From: Lactarius indigo
Taxonomy: Eukaryota > Basidiomycota > Agaricomycetes > Russulales > Russulaceae
NCBI GenBank assembly: GCA_025766275.1
Contig: JAFKAC010000041.1
Coordinates: forward strand, 1-64,000
Direction: 5' to 3'
Length of the DNA stretch: 64,000 nt
Under the pieces are notes generated by a model. The model saw only the letters and a list, made by a program, of their open reading frames with translations, did not search any database and was not told where the DNA came from. Below are positions 3,360 through 37,412 of this stretch, in pieces (the first letter of the stretch is position 1; each line of letters opens with the position of its first letter). The translations under genes were made by a program, and so were the position numbers.

Positions 3360-5470
3360 AACGCAGGGAATGATAGGCTGCCGATGGACAACAATGAGTA
3401 TCACTGGGATCATTCAGGCAGTACATGTCAAGGCAAATATGCCAGTGCTTCCCATAGAATTCTGGGCCCATTCAGGACCATCGGCAGCACTCTGGAGGGA
3501 AGGGCTCAGGCCATTAAAGGCAATCTATGGTGGCCCTTAAAAGGATTCTTAGCCCATTCAAAGCTATCAGCAACACATTTCAGGACTGACCATGGGTGGC
3601 TGGGCCTATTGAAGGTTGTTGGCTGCGCATCACAGGAACATGCCTGGGCCCAGCCAACATAGTCAGCAGTCTTGTTCCGAAGTGATATACTACCGATTAG
3701 ATTGAATTGGCCCAGAGTTGCTCTTAAGAAATGCTGCCGATGGTCTCAAATGGGCCTAATATGGTTTGTCAGTGATGCTAGGCCTGTCGGTAGCATCCCT
3801 CGTAAACAACATGGGGTCCATTCAAGACCATCGGTGCTTTCCCTCATAACTTGTCATGAGCAACATTGAGTTGATCAGGGATGTCATCAAGGGGCAATGC
3901 TGGGCCCATTTGAGCCCATCGGCAGCATGTCTCACAAGCAATGCTGGGCCCATCTAAGCCTGTTGACAGTATATCTCGCTAGCAATTTTGAGCCCATTCA
4001 AGGCAATCGGTAGTGACACTCAGGAATGACACTGGGTCGATGGGGTACCATCGGCAGCACGAATCATTTGCAACACTCGGCCATTCAAGGTAATCGGTAG
4101 TATTACTGACGAACAACACTGGGCCCATTTGAGACCATCGGCAGCATGTCTTGTGATTGACACCGGGTCTATTCAATACAATCAGCAATTTCACCAAGGA
4201 TCAATGCTGGGCCCATTTGAGACCATCGGCAGCATTTATTAAGAGCAACGCTGGGCCCATTCAAGGGAATCGGTAGTGTCACTTAGGAAATTACCAGGCC
4301 CATTTGAGACCATCAGCAGCATATCTTATGATTGACACTGGGCCCATTCAATAAAATCGTCAATATCACCAAGGATCAATTCTGGGCCCATTTGAGGCCA
4401 TCGACAGCATTTATTGAGACCAACGCTGGGCCTCTTCAAAGCAATCGGTAGTGTCGCTCAGGAAAACACTGGGCCCATTTGAGACCATCGGCAGCATATC
4501 TTATGATTGACACTGGGCCCATTCAATGCAATTGTCAATTTCACCAAGGATCAATTCTGGGCCCATTTGAGGCCATCGACAGCATTTATTGAGACCAACG
4601 CTGGGCCTATTCAAAGCAATCGGTAGTGTCGCTCAGGAAAACACTGGGCCCATTTGATACCATCGGTACCATATCTTATGATTGACACTGGGCCCATTCA
4701 ATGCAATCGGCAATTTCGCCAAGTATCAATGCTAGGCCCATTTGAGGCCATCGGCAGCATTTATCGAGAGGAACGCCGGGCCTATTCAAAGCAATCGGTA
4801 GTGTCACTCAGGAAAACACTGGGCCCATTTGAGACCATCGGCAGCATATCTTATGATTGGCACTGGGCCCAGTCAAGGAAATCGGTAGCATCACTTAGGA
4901 AAACACCGGGCCCATTTGAGACCATCGGCAGCATTTATTAAGAGCAACGCTGGGCCCATTCAAGGAAATCGGTAGTGTCACTTAGGATAATATCAGGCCC
5001 ATTTGAGACCATCGGCAGCATATCTTATGATTGGCACTGGGCCCATTCGATACAATTATCAATTTCACCAAGGATCAATTCTGGGCCCATTTGATCCTAT
5101 CGGCAGCATGTCCAAGGAGCCATTATGGGCCCGTTCAAGGCATTCGGTAGCATTGCAGGGGAATAGTACCGGGCCCATTTGAGACTGTCGGCGGCGTGTC
5201 TCAGGGGCAGCACTGGGCCTATTCAAGGAATTCGGTAGTATCACTTAGGAATAACATTGGGCCCATTTGAGACTATCGGCAGCACCTGTGAAGTGTTTTC
5301 TGTGTAGTGGGCCCATCTCTTTATCATGGTAAGGTATCTCCAGCTGATGTCACTGGCCCCATCCGAACAATTCGGCAGCTCTATTTAATAGGCCCATTCG
5401 TGATTTACGTCTGCCTTTACTATGTAGGCCCACATGGGTTTCACCGATGTATTAGGGTCATTTGCACATG
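3360..5470. repeat. 44-bp-period minisatellite with GGGCCC core (block 1)
   Basis: GGGCCC or one-mismatch forms recur every 44 bp: for example 3902, 3946, 3990, 4034, 4077, 4121, 4165, 4209 and 4253. Two unit types alternate, one containing TTTGAGACCATCGGCAGC and one containing TTCAATGCAATCGGTAG, so the higher-order period is 88 bp. The left part (3360-3900) is more degenerate. No plausible gene lies within it; short ORFs are by-products of the repeat. The same repeat recurs at 57.5-60.2 kb. The right end passes into the truncated element A near 5470-5511. Confidence 0.85.
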
Positions 5471-6364
5471 GGGTTTTACGAATGTATCGTTAATTATTTG
5501 CGTCATTATGTGCTCCCTACACCACGCCCCCCCCTTCCTTCCCACGCAACAACCACCCCTCGTGCCTCTCCTTCGTTACCTGTTGATACTCCTCCGCGCC
5601 CTCCTTCTCCCTCGCCTCCTCCAGTTGCCTCGCGCCCCCCCACCCCTGACTCCCCTATTAACTACGAGAGGGTAGCTGAACAAGCCCCTCCTGCCCCTCA
5701 CCCCAACCAGGAGAACTTTCCTCCTGCTGCTGCCACCGCCTATCAAGCCCCCCCTTGCCTCCTCCACCAAGGAGAGCATCCCCATCTTTACATCGCTGTC
5801 ATCACTCCTCAGGGAGAATCTTGGCGGCCCGCCTCTACTACACTTCGGGAACTGATCACCAGAGTTCCCCTCGCTACCACCCTTGCCAATTACCCCCCAG
5901 TGTTTCCCTCAGTCACCCCCTTTCGTCTCCTTTCCCCTCACGTCTACACCCTTTTCCCTCGCATCGTTGATCCCACTCAACACCCCAACTTCCCCCCTCT
6001 CTACATCTGTTCCAGGGCCGTCTACGACCTTCCCTCTCCGGACACCCCTTTTGGAACAATTCGCTACGACTTCAGGGAGGGCCTGCGGCGTGCTTTTGCC
6101 TCCCTTACTAACATCCATAGGGCCGGGTATATTGATTCCCTAGTTACCCTAGAGATTCAAGACTTCTTGGACGGGAGAATCGTGACCAGTTACGGACATC
6201 TTCGTTTTGCTATCGACGGACAAATCTACGCTTACCACCAAGCCTACTTTTTTGAGGACTTAGTTCGCGCCTCCCCCCATTTACTTGCTTACTGTCTTAC
6301 CCCTCGTATCCCTGCCGATCCTTTCTCCTTCATTACTACCTTCCCCGATTCCCAACCCCTCTAG
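5468..6364 (+). CDS. Element A ORF1, proline-rich, methionine-free after its start, function unknown
   Basis: An open frame of 298 codons ending in TAG. The only in-frame ATG (5468) lies in the adjoining minisatellite, so the original start was probably lost with the 5' end of the element. From 5511 to the stop there is no ATG in any sense frame. The first 100 residues are Pro/Ser/Thr-rich. The rest is more globular, with motifs such as GRIVTSYGHLRFAIDGQIYAYHQ and a Phe/Tyr-rich C-terminus. No known domain is recognised. It shares a reading frame with ORF2, but several stops and two hairpins lie between. It is either an extra protein of the element or the N-terminal part of a very long pre-Gag region. 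Confidence 0.5.
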   Translation: MGFYECIVNYLRHYVLPTPRPPLPSHATTTPRASPSLPVDTPPRPPSPSPPPVASRPPTPDSPINYERVAEQAPPAPHPNQENFPPAAATAYQAPPCLLHQGEHPHLYIAVITPQGESWRPASTTLRELITRVPLATTLANYPPVFPSVTPFRLLSPHVYTLFPRIVDPTQHPNFPPLYICSRAVYDLPSPDTPFGTIRYDFREGLRRAFASLTNIHRAGYIDSLVTLEIQDFLDGRIVTSYGHLRFAIDGQIYAYHQAYFFEDLVRASPHLLAYCLTPRIPADPFSFITTFPDSQPL

Positions 6365-6417
6365 AAGTCAGCAAGGGGGACGTACCTTTCTTTTGAAAAA
6401 TAAACTTGCCTTGATAA

Positions 6418-6500
6418 CTTAAAACGAGTGTTTTAAGCCTCAACGCAATAAGTAAGTAAACACTACTATCTAGGAAGGTCTTAAACCGAGTGGTTTTAAG
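6418..6500 (+). other. Paired GAGT-loop hairpins between ORF1 and ORF2
   Basis: Two similar inverted repeats lie in the 135-nt gap. The first is CTTAAAAC (6418-6425), loop GAGT, GTTTTAAG (6430-6437). The second is CTTAAACC (6480-6487), loop GAGT, GGTTTTAAG (6492-6500). The second ends exactly where the ORF2 frame opens, just after an in-frame TAA. Repetition of the same stem and loop suggests a selected RNA structure, possibly for reinitiation or ribosome handling; that role is inference. Confidence 0.45.
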
Positions 6501-7534
6501 TGCCCCCAGAACAACTAACAGAAGCTCAGAGGCTAGTGCTAGCCCAAGCCAACTTCGAATCCCACAGACGACGACAACTTGAACGATACTACCCTTCTAC
6601 TGCCCTTGTTGACTTATCAGCTGTAAACAACGCCGACTCCTGGACCGACCCCCCCACTGCCCTTAACAAGTTCCACTATAGTTTCGACTACGGAAGAATA
6701 CTAAGTGAAGAAGGCTACGAAACTCTTATCGACTGTCTCCCTATCCTAGTAGACGACGCCCACGAACAACTCCTTTACTGGCACCTTTCAGGTGCCGTCA
6801 CCACCAACAACAGGCCAGCAGATCAATACCTAGTTTGGACCAAGAGCGACTTCCTCTGGTTCATTTACATTCCCCCTCGGAGAGAACGACTTATTAGAAG
6901 CATAGAAGCAGGGCGTACCAAACGATACATCGACCGGGTTCTCCTCAACTACAGAGAACTACAAATCAACTTCAAAGAACTTCGGGTGGTTAGAGTCGGC
7001 GACTCCCCACCTCGACTCGTTATTGTCGAAGGAAAAGAATTTTCCTACATTTTCAGCACCGGAATTTGGGAAACAACACTTCCCAACCCAGACCAACCAT
7101 CAGTAAACCCACGGACATTCCTCGAACCCCCCAGAGAACCCGACGACCCAGAACTAGTAGAACTCATACAGGCCAGAGGAGGAAGAGCTTCTGAACGACC
7201 AAGGTCGATCGCTCTACTTGCTCGAATCGCAGAAGCAGGACCAGGCTTTGAACCCCTAGTTCCCTCAACCCCTGAATATTCTCCCCCACCTCCAGACGAA
7301 GTACCCTCTCCACGAGACAGTGACGTCTCTCTCCATAACGGAGACACTGACGAAGAAGGCGCAACAGTAGTGGATACTTGGAATAACCCAGTCAACACCA
7401 ACCCTTGTTGGTGTTCAAACGAAGTCTGCACTTGTGGATTTAGACCAGCTACTCCCCCTACCCCTCCTAACGTCGTATTGTGGGCCCCCGGACTTAATTA
7501 CTTACCATACCGAGGAAGCGTAGACGATTTTTAG
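6500..7534 (+). CDS. Element A ORF2, ATG-free reading frame with CxC-x4-CxC motif
   Basis: A 344-codon frame containing no ATG at all; the codon before it is TAA and the listed first codon is GTG. The N-terminal two thirds look globular and charged. An acidic, proline-rich segment follows, then a cysteine cluster C-x-C-x4-C-x-C at about residues 303-312. No family is recognised. It ends GAT TTT TAG, the same nine bases that end Gag. ORF3 lies in the -1 frame relative to it, as Pol does to Gag, and a short hairpin follows, so a -1 shift is conceivable. However, a TAA at 7570-7572 would stop the shifted frame before ORF3. Translation must rely on a non-AUG start, recoding or splicing, if it occurs. 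Confidence 0.5.
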   Translation: MPPEQLTEAQRLVLAQANFESHRRRQLERYYPSTALVDLSAVNNADSWTDPPTALNKFHYSFDYGRILSEEGYETLIDCLPILVDDAHEQLLYWHLSGAVTTNNRPADQYLVWTKSDFLWFIYIPPRRERLIRSIEAGRTKRYIDRVLLNYRELQINFKELRVVRVGDSPPRLVIVEGKEFSYIFSTGIWETTLPNPDQPSVNPRTFLEPPREPDDPELVELIQARGGRASERPRSIALLARIAEAGPGFEPLVPSTPEYSPPPPDEVPSPRDSDVSLHNGDTDEEGATVVDTWNNPVNTNPCWCSNEVCTCGFRPATPPTPPNVVLWAPGLNYLPYRGSVDDF

Positions 7535-7572
7535 AAATTTTGTCGGGACCTACTTTTGCTGAAAAGTGTTAA
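7526..7572 (+). other. T-run stop and hairpin at the end of ORF2
   Basis: GATTTTTAG at 7526-7534 ends ORF2 and matches the nine bases ending Gag (9820-9828). A 6-bp stem, ACTTTT-GCTG-AAAAGT, lies at 7551-7566. A -1 slip on TTT would read 13 codons in the ORF3 frame before TAA at 7570. This is either a decayed recoding site or coincidence. Confidence 0.3.
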
Positions 7573-8274
7573 GTCACAACTTTAAGTGAAAACCCGAGAA
7601 AATTATACCTGTTAAACATCAACCTGGAACCCATCACAAATTGGGCAGTCACCCTGGCTTCCACTCAGCGCACTACAAGAAGACGTCACCACCGTCCCCA
7701 AGTAGATACCCGCCCCCTTACATCCACAAACACTACCCCAGTAATTCCTAGGCAGGCAGCACGCGCCCAGCGACGAACCCCTAGTCAAATCCCTAGTATT
7801 AACCAATCCAGTCCAAACGAACCAGTTTTCCCTAGTATCCAAGATATCCCTAGACAACACACCACTAGTAGTGACGAAGCACAATACCTAGAAACCCAAC
7901 CCAGAGAAATTTATTGTCACCTCCCGGAAGCAATCCTTGTAACCAAAAGTTTACCCACACGAACCCCCAGAGAGCTCGACGTTTTTAAACGCCACTGTAC
8001 CCTCCTCTATCAAAACCGACACTCCAACGAAACCTTATTCTTTGCTCAACCGCTCACTAGGGCAACTGAAATCACCACCAGCCCCTTATACTTCCAAGAC
8101 TTCTTGTGGAGAAGTAAAACCATCCTAACCCATTTTGGTATTTGGGAAGAATACCATTGGATCCGCCGACAACAAAGAACCAACCACCCAGACCGTGCCA
8201 TCTTACTCCCTGCCTATAAAGTTTATTACCCTTGGAACATAGACAGTTGGACTGTCACCCGCCTGCAGAACTAG
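7573..8274 (+). CDS. Element A ORF3, ATG-free reading frame, function unknown
   Basis: A 233-codon frame with no ATG, opening after TAA (7570-7572) and closed by TAG (8272-8274). The first 90 residues are Arg/Pro/Ser/Thr-rich. The remainder looks folded, rich in Leu, Phe, Tyr and Trp, with segments such as YFQDFLWRSKTILTHFGIWEE. No known domain is recognised. It is in the same frame as ORF4 and Gag: TAG TGT ATG links it to ORF4 with only three bases between stop and start. That suggests a former or conditional continuous polypeptide, or stop-restart coupling. Confidence 0.5.
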   Translation, partial: VTTLSENPRKLYLLNINLEPITNWAVTLASTQRTTRRRHHRPQVDTRPLTSTNTTPVIPRQAARAQRRTPSQIPSINQSSPNEPVFPSIQDIPRQHTTSSDEAQYLETQPREIYCHLPEAILVTKSLPTRTPRELDVFKRHCTLLYQNRHSNETLFFAQPLTRATEITTSPLYFQDFLWRSKTILTHFGIWEEYHWIRRQQRTNHPDRAILLPAYKVYYPWNIDSWTVTRLQN

Positions 8275-8277
8275 TGT

Positions 8278-8787
8278 ATGAATACACAACGACCTCTCAC
8301 ACCAGAAGAAAAAGCCCACGTCCCAGTATACTTCTTCGACCCCTATTTTTCCCTTACCGACAACCTTTACTACGCCAAGTGGAAGGAGGAGGATATATCT
8401 AGCCCTACAGGAAAACACCCGTGGACAATAGTCGCTACCCAACACCAAATCGTTTTTCAGGACCTAAAAGAAGCCTTTCCTGGTATCGACAAAGTCAAGG
8501 ACCTAAGTTACAACTCCCTACACACCACTTTCAAAGGAAAGAGCGTCCGCTGGAACTTTGTAAACGAACAGTGGATCTACCTAAACAACAAACCAGTCCA
8601 TTTTAACACACCTAGTCAATCCGAAGATTCAGACAGCGACACGGAAGAAGTATCACAAATCCTAGACACTACTGCCAAAAAACTCTCTGGTCTACTATCC
8701 CAAGTAACCTCCCAACCCTCGACACCCCAGATTTCCCCTAGTACCTCCGGCCCTAGCCGTTTCCCTGCAACAGTTCCCCCACATTGA
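8278..8787 (+). CDS. Element A ORF4: pre-Gag domain protein, starts at the only leader ATG
   Basis: A 169-residue ORF beginning at the first ATG for about 2.77 kb. The ATG context is weak (T at -3, A at +4). It has no internal methionine and no other ATG occurs in any sense frame before the Gag start at 8863. A central segment, with Lys-Gly-Lys followed by RWNF and a Trp-Ile-Tyr strand, resembles the pre-Gag domains of the other elements (RPVEFNF...W motif), followed by an acidic, Ser/Thr/Pro-rich linker. It is in frame with Gag and separated from it by one TGA (8785-8787); CGA to TGA decay is common in this window, so the stop may be secondary. It may be a Gag N-terminal extension or a separate protein. 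Confidence 0.6.
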   Translation: MNTQRPLTPEEKAHVPVYFFDPYFSLTDNLYYAKWKEEDISSPTGKHPWTIVATQHQIVFQDLKEAFPGIDKVKDLSYNSLHTTFKGKSVRWNFVNEQWIYLNNKPVHFNTPSQSEDSDSDTEEVSQILDTTAKKLSGLLSQVTSQPSTPQISPSTSGPSRFPATVPPH

Positions 8788-8862
8788 CTCCCATCGCCAC
8801 CCCTAACCGTTCAAGCCTCTTCCTCAGCACCCCCTTTATCCGTTCCCCCTGTACCCACTGCA

Positions 8863-9828
8863 ATGGCAGCCCCTGCACCTGCAAAAATTTTAGGCGCAGC
8901 GCCTGAGCCCTTTGATGGCAAACCCAACAATGCCGAAGCATTTTGGAATAACCTGGCCAACTACTTCCACCTAAACCAGGATATCTTTAACACCGAGGAC
9001 AAAAAGATATCCACTGCCCTTACCTATTTCAAGGTCGGAACCCCAGCAGGAGAATGGGCTCAAGATAGGCAAAAGAAAGCCTTAAACCCGACCGGTGGAA
9101 CAGCAATAACCTTTGGCACTTGGGCGCAGTTCAAAACCGACTTTGAAGCACACTTCGTTCCTGGTCACACTGCCATGGAATCCACCAACAAAATGTATTC
9201 TCTAAAGATGGGGACCCGACCTTTCAACGAATGGTTCCAAGAATGGTCAACCCATGCTACACGAAGTGGTGCAAACGAGCAGACCAAGATGTATGCCTTC
9301 CGACAAGCTATCCCAACGGCTCTAAACATGAAGCTGCTTGGCATATCCCCCATCCCTACCACCTTCGACACCCTTGTCGAGAAAGCAAGAGAGTTTGATC
9401 GCGCCTATCGAATTTACGCTGGTCACGCCATTAACCAGTTCAACAAAACCCATAAGCCCACCACAGGACGAGCCGTCCTAGCGGAGGACGATAGCGTAAA
9501 TGTCAACGCCTCCTCATCTCGTACTACCAAACCAAGAGCCAAACTTACCAAGGAAGAGCGAGAGTATCGCTTCAAGAACAAACTCTGCCTGTACTGTGGC
9601 AAACCTGGCCACGTACTTAAAGAATGTCATGCCAAGACGGCAGCTATGAAGGCCAAAGGGGGCCAATCCAACAACAACGCTAGAGCGCGCGGCGCCTTTG
9701 TTGATGAACCAAGTCAGGAGGAAGCACCTGCTGACCACCCAGCAAACATTGGAGCGATATATCGAGAGATACTCCCTTTTGACCCGGACGCACGCCCGCG
9801 TTCGGTGCCTATTAATGAGGATTTTTAG
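8863..9828 (+). CDS. gag: Element A Gag (capsid and zinc-knuckle nucleocapsid)
   Basis: A 321-residue Gag. It starts at the second ATG after 5511, in a strong context (G at -3, G at +4). The central part (about residues 20-185) has the helical, Trp-rich pattern of Ty3/Gypsy capsid, including FKTDFEAHF. From residue 242 there is one CCHC zinc knuckle, CLYCGKPGHVLKEC, preceded by a basic patch. It packages element RNA into cytoplasmic virus-like particles. It ends GAT TTT TAG. Pol is in the -1 frame, so slipping on the T run would yield Gag-Pol. ATG codons appear at ordinary frequency from here on, which sharpens the contrast with the leader. Confidence 0.88.
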   Translation: MAAPAPAKILGAAPEPFDGKPNNAEAFWNNLANYFHLNQDIFNTEDKKISTALTYFKVGTPAGEWAQDRQKKALNPTGGTAITFGTWAQFKTDFEAHFVPGHTAMESTNKMYSLKMGTRPFNEWFQEWSTHATRSGANEQTKMYAFRQAIPTALNMKLLGISPIPTTFDTLVEKAREFDRAYRIYAGHAINQFNKTHKPTTGRAVLAEDDSVNVNASSSRTTKPRAKLTKEEREYRFKNKLCLYCGKPGHVLKECHAKTAAMKAKGGQSNNNARARGAFVDEPSQEEAPADHPANIGAIYREILPFDPDARPRSVPINEDF

Positions 9829-12800
9829 GCTCTTCCATCGTAGCACTGTCGATTGGAAGTATTCGTGCCAGTAGCGTTGTACACGGCCTTTCCCTACTAG
9901 AGACGCTTGGAGCCGAGCATGTACCTGTAGAAACAATTCGGAATAGGAGAGCTCCTTCAATTGTTCTCAGAGTTACACTAGTAGGAAAAAAGTCTGGCAA
10001 AGAAATCAGTGCCCGTGCCCTGTTGGACAGCGGTGCGGAGGGCATCATCGTGGATGATGGGTTTGCGCGAGCAAACAACCTAACAATGAGGACACTAATT
10101 AAACCCTTACCAGTTAGAAACGTGGACGGGTCTCCCAACAAGACGGGATCTGTTAGGTATACTACGATCCAAAGACTACGGATCAGAACTTCGGACGACA
10201 ACTACCACGACGAAACCGTGGAACTTTATGCAACTACTCTAGGGGAGCACGATATAATCTTAGGAACAGATTGGCTCCAAGCACATAACCCTGAAATCGA
10301 TTGGCATCAACCAAAGATAGCCTTCACACGATGCCCAAGAACCTGTACCCTGTCCTCCTCAACAGTTGTCATCTCTTCAAAAGTTCCACAGACACGACAC
10401 ACGACTATTAACATCCTTGAACTTGAAGCAACCCAAGAAGCTTACCTCCCCACGGAAGATGAAACAGAACCTCTGGAACCTACATTCGTCAAAGATGCCT
10501 GTGAACCCTGGCTGTGGATTCACAGCTTTAACAAGTATGACCACCTTGCTATCCGAGCAAAGATAACTACAAGCACCAAGATAGCAGCACGCACTGCACC
10601 CAAGCCTTCCACCGACCATATTCCAAGTCATTTCCAACGTTACACCAAAGTATTCAGCGAAATCGCGTCCCACCGACTTCCCCAACACCAACCTTGGGAT
10701 CACGCAATTGATCTCAAGCCAGGAGCCACTATGAAGAATTGTGGCATCTATCGACTTACACCAAAAGAATCTGATGCCCTCAAAGAGTATATTTCTGAAC
10801 ACCTAAAGAAAGGTTACATTCGACCATCTAAGTCACCCATGGCTTCCCCCTTCTTTTTCGTCGACAAAAAAGATGGCAAACTCCGACCTGTGCAAGACTA
10901 CCGTGCCCTCAATGATATAACCATTAAAAACGCAGCACCCCTTCCCCTTATCCCTGAACTTATCGACAAACTCCATGGCGCACGTTACTTCACCAAACTG
11001 GATATTCGCTGGGGATACAACAATATCCGTATTCGTGAAGGCGATGAATACAAGGCAGCCTTCAAAACATCCTTAGGACTTTTCGAACCTACAGTAATGA
11101 CTTTTGGCCTCTGTAATGCCCCTGCCACCTTCCAAACGTTCATGAACCAAATCTTCGAGCCCTTGATCGATGGTGGACACGTAGTGGTCTACCTCGATGA
11201 CATCTTAATCTTTACAGAAGATATCTCCTCCCTTACAGCGTTGACACACGACGTGCTTCAACGGCTGGAACGCCACGACCTCTACCTAAAACCTGAAAAA
11301 TGTACCTTCGCACAAACTTCCGTAGAATACCTTGGAATCGTCATTTCCGATGGACAAGTTTCTATGGACCCTGCAAAAGTTGCGGGCATTACCCAATGGC
11401 CCACCCCACGTACTGTCAAACAAGTCCAAGCCTTCCTAGGCTTTTGCAACTTCTATCGACGCTTCATTAAAGACTACTCCGCTATCGCTCGCCCCTTGTT
11501 TGACCTGACCAAGAAGGATGTCCCCTTTTCTTGGGATACTGCAGCGGAAAGCGCTTTCCGCACCCTAATCCAGTGCTTCACGGAGGCTCCTGTCCTTGCC
11601 CTACCCAACCACTCCAAACCTTTCCGCCTCATCACCGACGCAAGTGATTTCGCTACCGGTGCCATCCTGGAGCAACCGGATGCCTTGCAACGTTGGCACC
11701 CCGTCGCCTTCCTTTCCAAATCCCTCCTTCCTGCTGAACGTCACTACGAAATCTGCGACAAGGAACTTCTTGCCATCATCCATGCCTTGCATGCTTTCCG
11801 CCACTACTTGGAAGGACGAGATGACGTTACTGAAATCTGGTCTGACCATGGCAACCTTGTCTATTTTACCACAAAGCAGAAGCTTTCCCGCCGTCAGGCC
11901 CATTGGGCCTTGTTCCTCTCTCGCTTCCAGTTCATCATCATCCACAAACCCGGTACACAGAATAAGTCTGATGCACTGTCCCGGCGTCCAGATCATAAAA
12001 AGGGGATAGCGGATGAAGATGAAAAACGAGTGCTCCTAGATACCAAGTATTTTTCCATCAACGCAGTACAAAGAACTGCAGTAACCATTCAAGGTGATAC
12101 CACCCTCCGACAACGTATCAAAAACACCCAGACCTACGACAAGGAAGTCAGCATGGCTCTAGAATCCCTCTTAAAAAATGGCCCTCGTTCCCTAGCTAAA
12201 GGCCTAGAAGAGTGGAACTTAGAAGATGGCATTATCTTGTTCAAAGGACAAGTCTACGTTCCCAAAGACGACAACCTACGAAGAGACATTGTTAAAACAT
12301 ACCATGACCACATTGCCACAGGACATCCAGGGCGATGGAAGACCTATGAGTTAATATCCCAAGACTTCTGGTGGCCAGGCATATCAACCTTTGTTAAAAC
12401 CTATGTTGATGGTTGCGCCATATGCCAAGCCACTAAAATCAAACCACGTACCCAAGTACCCCTACAACCAAACACAATACCTGAAGAAATATGGGGGACC
12501 ATCACAATGGACTTCATCACCGACCTTCCCCTATCCCACAACTACGATTCATTATTTGTAGTGGTTGATCGACTCAGCAAAGCTATAGTCATTTCCCCTT
12601 GCAACAAAACCATCACTGCAGACGAAACAGCCCAACTCTACCTTGAAAACGTCTGGAGACGTACTGGCCTACCTCAACAAGTCATTTCCGACAGAGGCCC
12701 CCAGTTTGCATCAAAAGTCATGCAAGAAATTTGGAACAAACTAGGAGTCAAATCTACCCTGTCCACGGCTTTCCATCCGCAAACAGATGGAGAAACCGAA

Positions 12801-13589
12801 CGCGTAAACCAAGAACTTGAACAGTACCTCCGTGTCTTCTGTAACTTCCAACAAGACAACTGGGTAGACCTAATCCCGTTCATGGAATTCGCGCACAATG
12901 CACGACAGCATAGTGCAACCCACAAATCACCCTTTGAAGTGTGGTATGGGTACAATCCGGAGTTCATTCCCCCCATCCACTTCAATAGCAAGATACCCGC
13001 AGCCGAAGAAAGACTAGATGCACTTAACCGAATCCGCTCTGAAGTTACTGCAGCCCTCAAAGTTGCCGCGGAAGTAATGAGAAATTCCAAGTCAATCCCA
13101 ACCCCTCACAAGTTCAATAAAGGCGATCTAGTCTGGCTAGAAGGGACTAACATTCACACTACCCACCCCAAAGCTAAACTCGCCCCCCGCCGCCATGGTC
13201 CTTTTAAAGTCCTATCCTCCTGGGGAGTTAACTGCAAACTCCAACTCCCAAAGACATGGCGAATCCACCCAGTCTTCCATAATTCCCTGATCTCTCCGTA
13301 CAAAGAAAACACCACGCATGGCCCTAACTTCACCCGACCGCCCCCCGAAATTGTCCAAGGGGAAGACGAACACTATGAAGTCGAAAGGGTCCTGCAATCA
13401 AAGATATCGCCCAACAAGAAAGGCGTACTTTACTTGATCAAATGGAAGGGGTATCCCGACTCCGAAAACTCCTGGCTCCCCTCCTCCCAAATGACCCACG
13501 CGCAAGACCTTGTTACTCAATTTCACAAGGCCAACCCTAGTGCCCCTAAACCAAAGTCAACTAGTGCTAGTGGAATAGCACGACGTTAA
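9825..13589 (+). CDS. pol: Element A Pol: protease, RT, RNase H, integrase, chromodomain
   Basis: Open in the -1 frame from the Gag stop to TAA at 13587-13589, about 1,254 codons, apparently without a lesion. In order: aspartic protease with DSGA (about 10026); reverse transcriptase with QDYRALN and YLDD (tyrosine codon at 11190); RNase H with an ITDASDF motif (about 11630); integrase with an H-H-C-C zinc region (about 12300-12430) and catalytic DDE core (first Asp about 12511, second in SDRGPQF); and a C-terminal chromodomain (about 13370-13490, LIKWKGYPDSENSW). It makes cDNA in the particle and integrates it; chromodomains of this group bind histone marks and guide targeting. It is most likely made as a -1 Gag-Pol fusion. 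No separate ATG start is needed near 10023. Confidence 0.9.
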   Translation, partial: LGSSIVALSIGSIRASSVVHGLSLLETLGAEHVPVETIRNRRAPSIVLRVTLVGKKSGKEISARALLDSGAEGIIVDDGFARANNLTMRTLIKPLPVRNVDGSPNKTGSVRYTTIQRLRIRTSDDNYHDETVELYATTLGEHDIILGTDWLQAHNPEIDWHQPKIAFTRCPRTCTLSSSTVVISSKVPQTRHTTINILELEATQEAYLPTEDETEPLEPTFVKDACEPWLWIHSFNKYDHLAIRAKITTSTKIAARTAPKPSTDHIPSHFQRYTKVFSEIASHRLPQHQPWDHAIDLKPGATMKNCGIYRLTPKESDALKEYISEHLKKGYIRPSKSPMASPFFFVDKKDGKLRPVQDYRALNDITIKNAAPLPLIPELIDKLHGARYFTKLDIRWGYNNIRIREGDEYKAAFKTSLGLFEPTVMTFGLCNAPATFQTFMNQIFEPLIDGGHVVVYLDDILIFTEDISSLTALTHDVLQRLERHDLYLKPEKCTFAQTSVEYLGIVISDGQVSMDPAKVAGITQWPTPRTVKQVQAFLGFCNFYRRFIKDYSAIARPLFDLTKKDVPFSWDTAAESAFRTLIQCFTEAPVLALPNHSKPFRLITDASDFATGAILEQPDALQRWHPVAFLSKSLLPAERHYEICDKELLAIIHALHAFRHYLEGRDDVTEIWSDHGNLVYFTTKQKLSRRQAHWALFLSRFQFIIIHKPGTQNKSDALSRRPDHKKGIADEDEKRVLLDTKYFSINAVQRTAVTIQGDTTLRQRIKNTQTYDKEVSMALESLLKNGPRSLAKGLEEWNLEDGIILFKGQVYVPKDDNLRRDIVKTYHDHIATGHPGRWKTYELISQDFWWPGISTFVKTYVDGCAICQATKIKPRTQVPLQPNTIPEEIWGTITMDFITDLPLSHNYDSLFVVVDRLSKAIVISPCNKTITADETAQLYLENVWRRTGLPQQVISDRGPQFASKVMQEIWNKLGVKSTLSTAFHPQTDGETERVNQELEQYLRVFCNFQQDNWVDLIPFMEFAHNARQHSATHKSPFEVWYGYNPEFIPPIHFNSKIPAAEERLDALNRIRSEVTAALKVAAEVMRNSKSIPTPHKFNKGDLVWLEGTNIHTTHPKAKLAPRRHGPFKVLSSWGVNCKLQLPKTWRIHPVFHNSLISPYKENTTHGPNFTRPPPEIVQGEDEHYEVERVLQSKISPNKKGVLYLIKWKGYPDSENSWLPSSQMTHAQDLVTQFHKANPSAPKPKSTSASGIARR

Positions 13590-13600
13590 AAAGGGGATAC

Positions 13601-14292
13601 TGTCACGAACCTATAAACCAGGTCGTGACTCAAGGCGCTTAGAGCCGGACCGGACCGGACCGGACCGGACCGGGCTTATGTCATCAGCTTCCTAAAGGGG
13701 AAATCCGAAATCGGAGTTTAAATTTCGCTCTCCGACAGTCACGTGATGTGTCACGTGATTACCCTGCCTTTCCAAGTCACATGCATACCTGCACGTGTAT
13801 CAATCAACAGTTGATCGTTTATCAATCAACGAAGATAATCAACCAAGTCACAAGGAACACGTGTCCTAATCACGAGTTCCGCAGTTGCTGCGGAATCATG
13901 CCACTATGGTGCAATATGGCGTCATTGACTGCGGCGCAGTCGTGCCATGCTTATCCTTTATCCTGATTGGACAGTATAAATAACTTGTCTCTGGAATGTT
14001 CCAATCCGCAGTATTGCGCAGCACTCGTGGGCAGGCCCTAAGCTTGCCCTAAACCTACGCACAGACCACCCCCTGTAGTATATAAGCTAGCGCAATCTAT
14101 CGGACAGTCCCTCAGACTGTCCACTTGTGACATCTTCCCTCTCTTGCCTCTCAGCTCCTTCGAGTGCCCCACCTTGTGTGCGCCACTATCTTCTTTGAGC
14201 CAAGACGCCTCCTCTCCGACCCCTTCGACGCTCCCTCCGTCTCTACCTTGCCCGACGTCGTCTCCAGCCTTATCCCTCGCTGTCGAGTGACA
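13601..14292 (+). repeat. Element A 3' LTR (692 bp)
   Basis: Begins TGTCAC and ends GTGACA. A purine tract (AAAAAGGGGATAC) lies just upstream at 13588-13600. Inside are five copies of CGGAC at 13649-13673, a TATATAA at 14079-14085 and, 36 nt later, an inverted repeat GGACAGTC-CCTCA-GACTGTCC (14102-14122) at the inferred transcription start. From there to the LTR end no ATG occurs. GTGAG (14293-14297) follows; its partner TSD copy is lost with the 5' end. Confidence 0.85.
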
Positions 14293-16798
14293 GTGAGTTC
14301 ATCACACGTACAGGGCCATAATACACGACCACCACGACCCCCCTATCCATGGACATCCAGGCATCAGCAGGACTCAACGGATAGTGGAACGACACTACTG
14401 GTGGCCACGCATCCATCGAGATGTGTACGAATATGTCACGGGGTGTGCTGACTGCCAGCGGAATAAAGTCAACACAAGACCAACGCATGCGCCGCTACAT
14501 CCCATTACTGCAATAACCAACGCCCCCCCTTTTTACACCATCGCGTTGGATTTCATTACTAAACTACCAACGTCCCAATCCTATGATAGCATTCTCACCG
14601 TCACCGATCACGATTGCAGTAAGGCCTCAATATTTATCCTGTGTAACGAAGAAATCACGGCAGAAGAAACCGCTATTCTGTACGTCAATCACGTGTTTAA
14701 ACGGTTCGGACTGCCGCGTAAAATTATCAGCGATTGCGACCCCCGATTCACGTCCAAGTTCACTAAGGAAGTATGCCGAATCCTAGGCATCAAACAGAAT
14801 ATCTCAACGGCGTATCACCCACGAACTGATGGACAATCAGAACGGACCAATCAATGGTTGGAACAGTATCTGCGATTCTGGGCCAACGAGCGTCAAGATA
14901 ACTGGGCGGCATACCTTCCCATAGCAGAATTCGCTCACAACAACTGGCCCCACAAACATACAAAACAATCGCCATTCATGCTACTCATGGGCTACGACCC
15001 AATGGCCGATTGGACGGATAAGCCATCCCCTATTCCAAATGTTATCACCCGACTCACACAGCTTAAGGAAGCACGACAGCTGGCCCAGACCCTTATCAAG
15101 AAGGCCCAAGACAGTTGGGTGAAACATCGAAACACCCCGAAATATCAAATAGGCGACCAAGTGTGGTTAGAAGGGAAACACCTACGAACCAATCAACCCA
15201 CGGCAAAACTTGCGGCGCGACGCCACAGCCCTTTCAAGGTGGTCCAGGTGATGTCCCCATACAATTATCGCCTCGAACTTCCCGCACAGTGGAGCATCCA
15301 CCCGGTGTTTCACATAGATCTTCTCACACCATACAAAAGCACGACCATACACGGCGAAAATTTCCCTAGACCACCACCGGATCTTGTGGAAGGAGAAGAG
15401 GAATATGAAGTTGAGGCTGTTCTGGACTCACGGCACGTCGGCCGCCGAAGGAAACTGCAATACCTCATCAAATGGAAGGGGTACCCTCACTCGGAGAATC
15501 AGTGGGTCGATAAGGATGACGTCTTTGCTCCGGAAGCAATAGAGGCATATCAAGCGGCCCGGACAGCTGCACGAAGACTTAAAACCGAGACCGAAGGGGG
15601 TCGGGGAGAGTATCACTCCTACCTTCAATCCACTTTTACGTCTATGCCCACCTCTCCCCTCAGACATGTCACCACGGCGATCCTCCTCAACCAAGTCGCA
15701 CAAGATGCCGCCGCCATCATCCAAGACGACGAAGAAACCGTGGTTCCAACGGTCCAGCTCACTCCGTACACACCTGCAAACGTGCGAACGGGGCATATCA
15801 CCACTCAAGAATGGGCTGGCCTCCTACAGAGGTTCCCAGACCCCACGCGCCAGCCCAGCGACGAGCAGCAGCCTGCCGTCGCTCACATCTTCCGAGACGA
15901 CAGCGGGGCGCGGGAACCCATCGCGATCATCCCCCCAGACGACGCTCTTATCAGTATTAGGGGAGTTTTCCCGACCGATCGACCTAACGAAGGACCGGGA
16001 GGAGACGGAAGCGGAGGAGGCTTGGCGGAGGACGGCTCAGGAGTGGGCCAGAGAACAGTTGAGGTTGGCACAGGAGAGATTGAGCGAGTTGCAGCAGCGC
16101 AGGCAGCAATGCCGGACCAAGCTGACCATGACGACGGAGATTACTACCCGGTCAGCCACCCCCTCCTTCGAACGAATCGCGACTCTGCTGATCCTGGAAT
16201 CACCCCGTGGCTCCTGCACACTGACGGAACCCCCATGTCTCGAGGACGTGTGCGACTGCCCGGCGTCGCATTACACACCACCATTACGCGCGACGACGAC
16301 CCCACGCAGGTCCTTGCGCCTGAAGGGTTCCGGGCGAATTGACAGCCCCATCACATTCATTTCCCCATCACCGGGCCGGACGGAGTAGAGCTGCAGGCGA
16401 GTCATGTGCAGATTGTTGGAGGTGCGAACCCCTTTGTCCTGGGAGTTATCCCAGGATCCCCCTATCTTTACAGCAAACCCCTTTACGCCACTCCCCACCT
16501 TTCGGCTGCGAACCATGCCTTCATCGCCCACGAGGATCTAGTGATTCTCGCCGCCAACAAACTTACGGACCGCGCACTCAACCGCATAGGGGATGAATCC
16601 CTAGTTGCAGAGGTGACACGGTATCGTGCCGCAGCCCACGAGGAGTCGCGCCTACAAGCGCGTATCCGTCAACTCCGCGGTATGGTCCTTGTCGCCCGAG
16701 AGGACAAGATGGACTGTGTGTACCGCTTGGAGCGGGTGGACGTGTTCTGACGCATTGAAGACGAGCAGCGTGAGTGGATCGCGCGGGACTTCCAGTGA
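14293..16798 (+). pseudogene. pol: Element F Pol C-terminal part: integrase, chromodomain, extension
   Basis: The frame opens at the A/F junction with the integrase H2C2 region (HGHPGIS... and CADCQRNK). It continues through the catalytic core (ALDFITK, SDCDPRF, RTNQWLEQ), a GPY-like segment and the chromodomain (YLIKWKGYPHSENQW). A long C-terminal extension of about 400 residues follows, shared with B, B' and C. TGA at 16340-16342 replaces the CGA found at the same place in element B. A second TGA (about 16748) and the final TGA (16796-16798) follow. SDRDPRF is SDCDPRF here, an Arg-to-Cys change that a CpG transition would explain. Truncated at the 5' side, so not functional alone. Confidence 0.85.
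15666..16388 (+). CDS. Overlapping ORF in +1 frame of Pol tail (element F copy)
   Basis: 240 codons, ATG to TAG, in the +1 frame relative to Pol. It starts MSPRRSSSTKSHK and has a predicted coiled-coil segment with W-x-x-T-A-x-x-W-x-x-E-Q-L-x-x-A. It ends shortly after KGSGRIDSPITF. The same ORF, in the same frame relation, is open in B and B', and a diverged version is open in C. Basic and Ser/Thr-rich at the N-terminus. Function unknown. Both frames are conserved between F and B, so dual coding is possible. Confidence 0.45.
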   Translation: MSPRRSSSTKSHKMPPPSSKTTKKPWFQRSSSLRTHLQTCERGISPLKNGLASYRGSQTPRASPATSSSLPSLTSSETTAGRGNPSRSSPQTTLLSVLGEFSRPIDLTKDREETEAEEAWRRTAQEWAREQLRLAQERLSELQQRRQQCRTKLTMTTEITTRSATPSFERIATLLILESPRGSCTLTEPPCLEDVCDCPASHYTPPLRATTTPRRSLRLKGSGRIDSPITFISPSPGRTE

Positions 16799-16828: not shown

Positions 16829-17306
16829 TGTCACGTTTCTGCATTGGACCCTTACTGTACCGGTTGTGACTACGGCGGTAAGGTAAATTAGTCACGGACT
16901 CGCGGCCTTAGGGCATTACGATGTAGTACGATAGGAGATTGGGGTTGATTGCTGACTGGACTCTGACTCGATCCTAGTACAGGTAGTAGTAGTACTAGGA
17001 TTGCGGTACTTACGCGATACGTTGGACACTATGATATGGTGACTCATAGCAGCGCTTGAAAGCCTGCTTTTCTTGTATTTAAGGTAGCTACGGAAGACCA
17101 AGATACGCCATCTTGGTCTTCTTCAATCATCACTTTCTGTCTCATCCTTCGTTCGCCTCTACCCGAGCTAGAGTACCGTCAAATCACAGTGTCTTTGAAC
17201 ATCTGTCAGAACTGCCTTCGTGCCATACGCTTCCAGCGTGATCAGCTAAGTCAAAGAGTCGCCTTTATCCAAGCTCAAGTCGAGCTAACGCTGTGACGGC
17301 GTTACA
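16829..17306 (+). repeat. Element F 3' LTR (478 bp, B family)
   Basis: TGTCACG...GGCGTTACA, preceded by the purine tract GAAAAGGGGGTGA. It closely matches the B LTRs at 36943 and 44165, including a TATTTAA and the palindrome GAAGACCAAGAT/ATCTTGGTCTTC at the inferred start. Confidence 0.85.
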
Positions 17307-18092
17307 TGCTCCTTTGAGTCCTCCTGAGCTCGTTGTTGGTGTTCCTCCTGTTCCGGTGCTTGAGCCGGTACCTGTGCCAGTGCCTGTGGCGTTTATGGCT
17401 GACATGATGAGTGTTGGCTGTGATGTGATGGGGATCTGGGGTGGTTCAACTGGGGAGGGTAATCTGATTGGTGGTAGTGGGGCTGGGAATCCTTCTTCCG
17501 CTGGGGATGGTTCTATCCAGATAGGGATAGTGGGGCTGGCTTGTGACGAAGCTTGTGTGGGTACTGTGATGTCTAAGTGGTGTTCTGAGGAGTGGGATGG
17601 TTCTGAGTGTGATTCCGCTTCGTCTGAGCTGGGTTCTTCTTCTGATGAGTCTTGTTGTAGTCCGTATGTTCCCCTAGTGTTTCTTGGTGCTGAGGATGAT
17701 TGTTGTGTGGGCGTTTCTGGGTTCTGTTCGTCTTCTTCATTCCACCAGCCTAGTCCTTCAGCAAATCTGTGTGGTGTGATGTTTATGGCTCTGGTATGGT
17801 AGGGGTTCTGAAAGTATCGGAGGATGTACCAGTTGTTGTTGATGAATTCCACTGGTCTGAGTTCGCCTTTGATGAGGCACTTGTAACAAGGTGGTCTGCC
17901 TGATGTTGTGGCCCAGCGAGCTCCTTTTCCTAGTTGACTGCTTTTAACGTGGTGTGGGAGGTCGTCTTGTGTTCTGGTTGTGACTGGGGTCCAATCGTTG
18001 TCTGATTCAAAGGTGACACTGATGCTAGCCACGATTGTGGTCTGTCTTGGGTGCTGATTTGTGTAAGGGGATGGCTGAAGCGGCCCCTTGTG
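17307..18092 (-). CDS. Element E pre-Gag ORF and Gag N-terminus (truncated)
   Basis: An open frame from after TGA (18093-18095) to the F junction. No in-frame ATG occurs before the inferred Gag methionine at 17405-17403 (MSAINATG), which has A at -3. Only two out-of-frame ATGs lie between the LTR and that codon; one (about 18105) starts a four-codon uORF. The domain includes LRPVEFINNNW, matching the RPVEFNF...W core of the B and C pre-Gag regions, then an acidic Ser/Gln-rich linker and a Gly-Thr run. The arrangement matches element A ORF4 plus Gag. A non-AUG start is implied if the pre-Gag part is translated. Confidence 0.55.
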
Positions 18093-18240
18093 TCAGGGAG
18101 GATCCATCGCCTGGCTATGCCGTCGTTTCTGGGTTCTGTGGAGTGTCTGGTTGTTGGCTGATGCGTCCTCTTGGATCGTCGCCCACTCTGCTGTGTGGCA
18201 GTAGTGTCTTGGGTGTGTTGGGAGTTGTAGACTTGGCTTA

Positions 18241-18768
18241 TGTTACGCCCTAGCAGGGGCGTGGGTTCTGAAGGTTTCTAATCACACAAGTATCAAGTGA
18301 AGACCTCTGTTGTCTTATTGCTATGAAATACAAGTGGCGAAAGTGTGGCACAGGGTGCAGCACTACTCTGTAATATAGGACTCCTCGTCCGAAGTGTCTG
18401 ACACTTCTCTACACTTGATCTTGCTAGTGCACAGAGTATAACAGGTGTGACGCGTTGATATAGTTCAACTGCAAAGACTTCGAAGTGTCCTGGTTAGGGA
18501 CTGAGGTAGGGGATGCACAAGAGGAGGGGAATAGGGCGAGGTCACACCAAAGTACGGAGGCAAGGTTGCTAGATTGCAAACGAAGCCAAGTCTGGCTTCC
18601 TACGGTCTATAGTACAGGTTTATATAGGACAGGGTTCCAAACAACATGAACACAAGTCCACACAATATCAAAGAGACTAAATGGAGCAAGCAGAAGTTCG
18701 GATCAAAGAAACAGCACCACTAGTAACAGTAGCTCTGTGACTGAGGTCTGAAGCGTCGGATCATAACA
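18241..18768 (-). repeat. Element E 5' LTR (528 bp)
   Basis: On the plus strand it runs TGTTACGCCC...GATCATAACA. In the sense direction, TATATAA (from 18626) lies 34 nt before the inferred start GACTTGGCTTC (18592), inside a GAAGCCA/TGGCTTC palindrome. The adjacent sequence at 18230-18240 reads TAAGCCAAGTC in sense, complementary to that start. No ATG occurs between the inferred start and the LTR end. TCTCT (18769-18773) flanks it on the right; the partner copy is lost. Confidence 0.75.
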
Positions 18769-36942: not shown

Positions 36943-37398
36943 TGTTACGGTCGCGCGTATTGGACCCTTACTGTACCGGTTGTGGCTACGGCGGTAAGGT
37001 AGATTAGTCACGGACTCGGGATTTACGATAGGAGTTAGGCGATAAGGGATGACTCGATCCTAGTACAGGTAGTAGTAGTATTAGGATGGCGGTACTTACG
37101 CGATACGTTGGACGCTACCATACTGTGACTCATAGCAGCGCTTGAAAGCCTGCTCTTTCTGTATTTAAGATAGCTGCGGAAGACCAAGATACGCCATCTT
37201 GGTCTTCTTCAATCGTCACTTCTCTACTTCTCATCTTTGAAAGTCTCGCCCTTGTGTTGGGCTTGAGTGCCGCAGTTATACTAGTGTCTTCGAACATCTA
37301 GAAGTTGCCTTCGTGCCATACGCCTCGCAGCGTGATCAGCTAAGTTACCAGATCGCCTTAACGAGCTCAGGTCGAGCTAACGTCGTGACGGCGTTACA
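36943..37398 (+). repeat. Element B 5' LTR
   Basis: TGTTACGG...GGCGTTACA, 456 bp. U3 carries TATTTAA (37162-37168). No ATG from the inferred start (37196) to the LTR end. Confidence 0.93.
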
Positions 37399-37412
37399 TT
37401 AAGACCAAGATA
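37162..37412 (+). promoter_or_regulatory. Element B TATA box, start palindrome and self-primer site
   Basis: TATTTAA at 37162 is followed 34 nt later by ATCTTGGTCTT (37196), the right arm of a 12-bp inverted repeat with GAAGACCAAGAT (37179-37190). Two bases past the LTR, 37401-37411 reads AAGACCAAGAT, exactly complementary to the inferred transcript 5' end. This is the layout of Tf1/sushi-type self-primed reverse transcription, in which the RNA 5' end folds onto the primer site instead of a tRNA. The same layout and 34-nt spacing occur in C and, with different bases, in E. Confidence 0.65.

Follow-up and report, generated by a model that had tools for sequence, protein, structure and literature searches.

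Fungal Ty3/gypsy chromoviruses encode Gag, protease, reverse transcriptase, RNase H and integrase together with a chromodomain, and Tf1 is self-primed. In retroviral leaders a splice donor lies near the primer-binding site within a hairpin, as in SL2 of human immunodeficiency virus type 1 (HIV-1), and accessory genes are expressed from spliced RNA; splicing is also said to underlie the RNA pools of barley BARE. In rice tungro bacilliform virus (RTBV), ORF I and ORF II, about 900 nt, are AUG-free, and translation involves an AUU start and leaky scanning, with one distal open reading frame (ORF) expressed by splicing (PMC5902531); in the Arabidopsis Ty1/Copia element EVADE, splicing separates a short-GAG RNA from the Gag-Pol RNA (PMC8892269). 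The locus described here lies in the window, a 64,000-nucleotide stretch of Lactarius indigo DNA (contig JAFKAC010000041.1, positions 1 to 64,000), in which the plus-strand DNA from position 5513 onward belongs, as judged from its sequence, to a high-copy Ty3/gypsy chromovirus family of the fungus, of which it represents a broken copy truncated at the 5' end. We consider it probable that in this chromovirus the retention or removal of short introns determines to which ORF the first AUG belongs.

A strand-specific ATG desert over three genes under purifying selection

Between 5511 and 8862 the plus strand holds a single ATG, at 8278, and the next lies at 8863. CAT occurs 32 times in the same interval, so the depletion is strand-specific; a recount thereby reproduces what an earlier note on this DNA had claimed, and in fuller copies of the element the desert is longer. 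The 2770-nt gap ahead of 8278 is the largest ATG gap of the window, the next largest being 843 nt, and across 5513–8277 no ATG is present where a first-order Markov model expects 15.3, with CAT at 29 against 28.1 expected. The comparison set comprises 27 fetched sequences (L009–L031 and L042–L045; 28 with the window copy), and leader counts were taken from 24 of them, excluding L018, L025 and L027, whose limits misfit the frame used. The desert is kept in these relatives: over the roughly 3.4 kb between the gag ATG and a point 35 nt past the TATA box, eleven of the 24 leaders are ATG-free, and the remaining 13 carry 1–24 ATG. The nine leaders whose ORF1–3 are all flagged open, by rough script criteria, have ATG counts of 0, 0, 0, 0, 0, 0, 0, 1 and 2; those of the fifteen with at least one broken ORF are 0, 0, 0, 0, 1, 1, 2, 4, 5, 5, 5, 9, 10, 18 and 24. 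The Markov expectation is 16–20 ATG per leader, the two most decayed copies excepted, and CAT stays near expectation (20 leaders and the window copy, without L042–L045).

The decayed copies L019 and L024 carry 18 and 24 ATG, with ACG counts of 20 and 17 against 42–54 elsewhere; mutation in this genome creates ATG, and the absence of ATG therefore requires selection. Codon-preserving shuffles point the same way, since L009 has no ATG in ORF1, ORF2 or ORF3 against shuffle means of 2.8, 4.4 and 1.4, zero being reached in 59, 14 and 340 of 2000 synonymous-codon shuffles, respectively, so that out-of-frame ATG is avoided too. The shuffle deficit is not significant for ORF3 alone in the window's subfamily, L028 is an exception in ORF1 (2 ATG observed, 2.7 expected), and CAT is mildly deficient in ORF1 of L009 (11 against a shuffle mean of 15.9). 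The selection against AUG that the earlier note proposed is supported by the conserved desert, the shuffles and the ATG gain of decayed copies. As separate observations, nonsense codons in matched ORF2 copies are mostly TGA, and ACG drops as ATG rises in decayed copies; the decay is C-to-T, perhaps at CpG or by a process resembling repeat-induced point mutation. A second plus-strand ATG gap, of 843 nt, lies at 37086–37929, where tblastn with ORF1–3, the Gag N-terminus and homologues returned just one short P0052 match, on the minus strand.

ORF1–3 are real proteins under purifying selection. Median pairwise ratios of nonsynonymous to synonymous substitution (dN/dS), on which the earlier note had wished to see the upstream ORFs judged, are 0.1–0.2: 0.136 for ORF1 (18 copies), 0.217 for ORF2 (18 copies; up to 0.41) and 0.105 for ORF3 (19 copies; up to 0.57), compared with 0.075 for gag (17 copies) and 0.068 for pol (11 copies), all among copies passing ORF length and motif filters (11–19 per ORF) and pairs with dS above 0.05. 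ORF1 is represented in the window copy by its 3' two thirds (5513..6364, plus strand), without methionine, and its split AUG would lie upstream of the truncation; the length of about 283 codons first assigned to it reflects this truncation, intact copies having 421–425 codons from stop to stop. ORF2 (6500..7534, plus strand), an orphan protein with a cysteine-rich tail, spans 344 codons in the unspliced frame with GTG first and would acquire an AUG only after the proposed splicing. The ORF3 open frame (7573..8274, plus strand) has 233 codons, its protein likely running from the CUG at 7624.

The absence of methionine from ORF1–3 extends to nearly all copies and most homologues. Among the dN/dS copies one methionine each is found in ORF1 of L025 and L031, ORF2 of L042 and L043 and ORF3 of L042, and otherwise none; 15 of 18 ORF2/ORF3 homologues have no internal methionine (P0003 and P0018 have one each, P0002 two), and neither do 10 of 12 non-NCBI ORF1 homologues (P0044 and P0050 have three each). 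Homologues number 36 for ORF1 (P0019–P0054), 10 for ORF2 and 8 for ORF3, many of them from Lactarius (Russulales), which also supplies the nearest named homologues. Pfam gave no convincing match on ORF1–3, the AlphaFold model of ORF2 (mean predicted local distance difference test score 59) reached a best E of 0.089 against the PDB, and profile comparisons of ORF1, ORF2 and ORF3 reached a best E of 0.016 with a probability of 2.8%, from which no relationship is claimed. In viral_contigs and genome_contigs a single doubtful 33-residue match (L052) was found and not used.

Splice-like signals and split AUG frames at ORF1 and ORF2

Conserved splice-like signals, comprising donor, branch site and acceptor, are present just ahead of both ORF1 and ORF2. 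Specifically, the donor motif GTRAGT occurs in all 24 leaders solely just upstream of these two frames, always after an A, and AG/TG (the slash marking the predicted exon boundary) follows in frame 47–56 nt past each donor; in number, the exceptions are L016, which repeats the LTR (long terminal repeat) end, and eight leaders of one subfamily, in which donor 2 carries a tandem GTAAGTAAGT. About 0.8–1.2 GTRAGT are expected per leader by a Markov model (six leaders computed), and it is therefore the placement, not the number, that constitutes evidence. Because donors begin with GT, an exon ending in AT would itself write ATG in the unspliced form, which leaves A/TG, the split present at both genes, as the sole start-codon split compatible with an AUG-free RNA.

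At the 5' LTR end the copies read ..CTGTCGAGTGACA/GTGAGT...GACTGAC...YAG/TG.., a candidate intron 1 of 55–56 nt that starts within the end of the LTR and spans the putative primer-binding site. Its removal would produce GACATG, whose AUG is in frame with ORF1 and has G at −3, and by script the junction is in frame in 25 of the 28 sequences, the exceptions being the window copy, from which the region is absent, L018 and L027. Donor 1 with its following stretch is found at 63 places in the genome, all GTGAGT, under a pattern that itself included GTGAGT and tolerated up to 3 mismatches. The branch-acceptor stretch is found at 104 places (93, plus 11 with one base less), all with C or T before AG/TG as counted by eye, with substitutions in the spacer and a variable next codon; this pattern included AGTG, and the 1 mismatch allowed never fell there. 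Both genome listings hold near-pattern places only, so that worse donors or acceptors would escape them.

The putative intron 2 (6452..6500, plus strand; 49 nt, A/GTAAGT ... TTTTAAG/TG) would join A6451 to TG6501–6502 and thereby form the ORF2 AUG. Across copies it measures 47–53 nt, with AAG/TGCC in all 28 sequences and the donor GTAAGT in 27 (decayed in L018), and its junction, in frame in 28 of 28, would give AUG CCN CCN at the start of ORF2; in L029, where script limits were off, the length of 51 nt and the −3 base were read by eye. Host actin introns measure 50, 53, 56 and 59 nt, the first three ending in TAG and the last in AAG, so the lengths of the element introns and an AAG acceptor are ordinary here. 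As for removal of the whole desert as a single intron, none of the 24 leaders holds a donor of the GTRAGT type, the type searched for, beyond those described.

Gene models from Lactarius bear on the same junctions. The ORF1 N-terminal motif is present in 20 NCBI models (19 Lactarius and P0023). Counted by eye at the ORF1 junction, 12 of these, all from Lactarius, read SSDMSDY, which fits the proposed LTR-end splicing because CTG TCG AGT GAC A/TG encodes L-S-S-D-M; P0029 and P0047 have M at the same place. In P0002 (EDB89DRAFT_1915510), a hypothetical protein of L. sanguifluus homologous to ORF1/ORF2, the two internal methionines fall exactly at the two predicted split-AUG sites. ORF1 and ORF2 most likely start at AUGs formed only by splicing. 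The earlier note had ascribed non-AUG starts to the upstream frames, a suggestion that stays plausible for ORF3 (CUG), with ORF1 and ORF2 better explained by split AUGs; of its refuting scenario, that the region is spliced out or joined to an upstream AUG exon, the former part seems not to apply, and two short introns seem to complete the AUGs, the unspliced RNA staying AUG-free.

Several points weigh against splicing at these junctions. Four of the 20 models read the ORF1 junction otherwise (P0019, P0041, P0049, P0051) and two read it unspliced as ..PLVSDY.. (P0023, P0054); moreover, the Lactarius models are automatic annotations, several of which begin in LTR sequence that precedes the TATA box. 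At the spliced ORF2 AUG, A stands at −3 solely in the window's subfamily (20 of 28), the other 8 having G (L029) or C. The acceptor of intron 2 is AAG, and its candidate branch site is atypical and lies within a hairpin. The four host actin donors all differ from GTRAGT, which shows that this host accepts weaker donors, and a few donor-like hexamers elsewhere in the leaders might serve as such. Genome searches for the two spliced junctions found neither, one giving 0 matches and the other two matches that lack ATG; a spliced genomic copy is not expected for intron 1, as it carries the primer-binding site, an argument that holds less for intron 2. The copies also share descent, which makes copy counts non-independent.

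ORF3 would start differently. No usable A/TG split was found for it in the five copies scanned, and the frame is most likely started at a low rate at a candidate CUG (7624..7626, plus strand; A at −3, G at +4), with a second in-frame strong-context CUG 30 nt on. All 19 copies examined use CTG as the leucine codon at this conserved start. In 9 of them no other strong-context CUG precedes it in the RNA, and in the other 10 there are 1–3 upstream, which counts against its use.

Predicted RNA hairpins with a C-GAGU-G loop accompany the splice-like signals. Hairpin 1 (6418..6437, plus strand; 8 bp), between ORF1 and intron 2, has its complete stem in all 28 sequences, counting those with loop or pair variants. 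Hairpin 2 (6480..6500, plus strand) carries the candidate branch site CTTA in its 5' arm and ends its 3' arm in the AAG acceptor; its stem is full in 24 of 28, with compensatory variants CTTATACC/GGTTATAAG (4 copies) and CTTAAATC/GATTTAAG (5 copies). At donor 1 the hairpin matches its pattern exactly in 21 of 28, one of these with a loop-closing change. A scan of six copies for C-GAGU-G or C-AAGU-G loops with at least 8 pairs and one bulge allowed, from position 1500 onward and taking in neither the whole of Pol, the 3' end nor donor 1 of L031, placed such hairpins solely at donor 1, ahead of intron 2 and at acceptor 2, with a further one ahead of ORF3 in a single subfamily. An Rfam scan of L009 1500–5700 gave no match. 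The hairpins at donor 1 and acceptor 2 probably restrain splicing; alternatively, they may be bound by Gag.

The gag AUGs, Pol and the surrounding DNA

The first AUG of the RNA (8278..8280, plus strand) would start a long Gag and lies in a weak context (T at −3, A at +4), and the second (8863..8865, plus strand), 585 nt on and in frame with the first, would start a short Gag from a strong context (G at −3 and +4). This weak-then-strong order, already described in the earlier note, is the same in 22 of 22 copies (20 leaders, L018 and the window copy) and fits leaky scanning that would yield both Gag forms. No ATG separates the two in 17 of 22 copies, L014, L016, L018, L019 and L024 having 1–4, where only about 2–4 are expected. 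ORF4, previously read as a separate gene, forms the N-terminus of Gag, the two sharing a single open frame in 17 of 22 copies. Between the gag AUGs a stop is present in the window copy (nonsense codon TGA, 8785..8787, plus strand), L018 and L019, and a shifted frame in L024 and L029; a recoding site at the ORF4/Gag stop was rejected because 17 of 22 copies show neither stop nor shift there.

The Gag body (8788..9828, plus strand) matches Retrotrans_gag and, weakly and under curated cut-offs, a zinc knuckle, the whole Gag frame comprising about 516 codons. Pol (9819..13589, plus strand; −1 frame relative to Gag) contains protease, reverse transcriptase, RNase H, integrase, SH3 and chromodomain; its Pfam order is RVP_2 45–171, RT 349–509, RNase H 572–703, H2C2 817–874, rve 895–987 and Chromo 1186–1237, the protease–reverse transcriptase–RNase H–integrase order with C-terminal chromodomain that defines a chromovirus of the Metaviridae. 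The Gag/Pol overlap at 9819–9828 has GAT TTT TAG at the gag stop.

At the DNA level at least 51 pieces of the element are found in the 90-Mb genome to which the window belongs (186 candidates, 40 of them scored), and the ORF2 protein as query gives 121 matches there; together these establish a high-copy family with subfamilies. The window copy starts at 5513, and other copies, which align from about 5513, extend further upstream into the LTR, so the window copy is 5'-truncated, which suggests that its 5' LTR was lost at the break 5512/5513; L009 has about 0.64 kb of additional ATG-free leader upstream. The LTRs start with TG and end with CA. The 3' LTR (13601..14306, plus strand; TGTCACG...TTCATCACA), its boundaries being inferred, carries a TATA box (14079–14085), the R motif AGACTGTCCA and the donor-1 hairpin, the 5' LTR counterparts of which are lost in the window copy. 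Just past the LTR, TGGACAGTCT complements AGACTGTCCA downstream of the TATA box at 10 of 10 positions (three copies; in L009, 1630–1639 and 1825–1834), and Tf1-like self-priming through this pairing is possible, the RNA 5' end being only a predicted one. A tRNA scan of the window found no tRNA.

In the flanking DNA, tandem repeats with about 44 and 175 nt spacing (GGGCCCATT...) occupy 3812–5293, ahead of the truncated element. Another gypsy element, nested or abutting, is represented by an integrase-chromodomain open frame at 14297–16342 that starts at the 3' LTR end, and 17265–18647 on the minus strand is a remnant of another element. On that strand just two ATG (18107 and 17740) lie between TATATAA (18626) and 17405, before and inside a 275-codon frame.

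A proposed splicing-dependent start-codon switch, its rivals and known systems

In the proposed mechanism the LTR promoter would give one RNA whose first 3.4 kb contain three accessory genes (ORF1–3) and no AUG. As the unspliced leader is AUG-free, scanning ribosomes would reach gag, the weak AUG giving long Gag and the strong AUG short Gag and Gag-Pol. Introns 1 and 2 would each join an exon ending in A to one beginning with TG: removal of intron 1 would express ORF1, retention of intron 1 with removal of intron 2 would express ORF2, and retention of both would provide Gag/Gag-Pol and the genome RNA, with low-rate production of ORF3 from CUG and with the hairpins over donor 1 and acceptor 2 restraining splicing. 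With some reserve, we lean towards a broader reading, in which splicing acts as a start-codon switch, the intron across the primer-binding site marks unspliced RNA as genome, and the desert, the A/TG phase and the hairpins form one co-adapted set, ancient enough to occur in this fungus, in Lactarius and in the sources of the metagenomic homologues.

Translation could instead proceed entirely on full-length RNA, with ORF1, ORF2 and ORF3 starting at GUG, GUG and CUG and leaky scanning to Gag as in RTBV. The junction codon is indeed GTG wherever the junction is found (25 sequences for ORF1, 28 for ORF2), nine non-NCBI ORF1 homologues start with V, five of them clearly at the junction place, the strong-context CUG of ORF3 is invariant, and RTBV provides a precedent over about 900 nt (PMC5902531). 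This account is nevertheless improbable, leaving unexplained the placement of GTRAGT just upstream of both GTG codons, the A that precedes it, the YAG or AAG before TG and the branch-like GACTGAC; furthermore, on unspliced RNA the base at −3 of the ORF2 GTG is T.

Much less credible is a fusion in which an AUG upstream in the U3 part of the LTR is spliced to ORF1 or ORF2, as in some Lactarius models: the N-terminal parts of P0040, P0041, P0043 and P0049 do match LTR 13959–14069, upstream of the TATA box, but ATG depletion sets in close to the TATA box, which suggests that the cap site lies downstream of the U3 AUGs. A similarly small chance attaches to reinitiation or internal ribosome entry through the GAGU hairpins and the close ORF3 stop and gag AUG, AUG avoidance being secondary. 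Hairpins confined to gaps in the stretches scanned, and a gag AUG that lies 3 nt past the ORF3 stop or overlaps it, speak for such entry, yet internal entry has no need of AUG-free ORFs, and two of the GAGU hairpins sit on splice-like signals. A compositional or mutational accident is already contradicted and has a negligible likelihood, given that CAT is near expectation, that ACG is common, that L019 and L024 gain ATG as ACG falls, and that most homologues are methionine-free too.

If splicing does form the ORF1 and ORF2 start codons, the element would have a multigene AUG-free leader far longer than the 900 nt of RTBV, would illustrate a way for a retrotransposon to accommodate accessory genes ahead of gag, would make long-distance scanning in fungi accessible in a naturally occurring system, and may account for peculiar hypothetical proteins in Lactarius annotations. 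Searches of the open-licence PMC literature turned up neither a retroelement whose start codons are split nor one with a comparable block of genes upstream, so that the split-AUG switch is, provisionally, undescribed as far as that literature shows.

Compared with known systems, the element resembles RTBV and the badnaviruses (Caulimoviridae) in having long upstream ORFs without internal AUG and in apparent leaky scanning past a first AUG, moderate there and weak here, with none between it and the stronger one. RTBV has two such ORFs over about 900 nt, against three over 3.4–4.0 kb here; unlike RTBV, the element is a fungal LTR element with integrase and chromodomain, its upstream AUGs are themselves apparently made by splicing, and it has no leader with AUG-containing upstream ORFs (11 of 24 leaders being AUG-free; shunt structures were not looked for). 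As in EVADE and BARE, intron retention versus removal would separate the RNAs of one retrotransposon, whereas splicing there leads to a Gag-only mRNA and that of the element would lead to accessory proteins, the unspliced RNA giving Gag. Donor 1, like that of HIV-1, lies near a putative primer-binding site and is predicted to fold into a hairpin, and the accessory genes would come from spliced RNA; in contrast to retroviruses, these genes lie upstream of gag and their start codons would straddle exon junctions. Unlike fungal chromoviruses as generally described, the element carries three orphan ORFs in an AUG-free region upstream of gag. Collectively, it would be RTBV-like in scanning and retrovirus-like in splicing.

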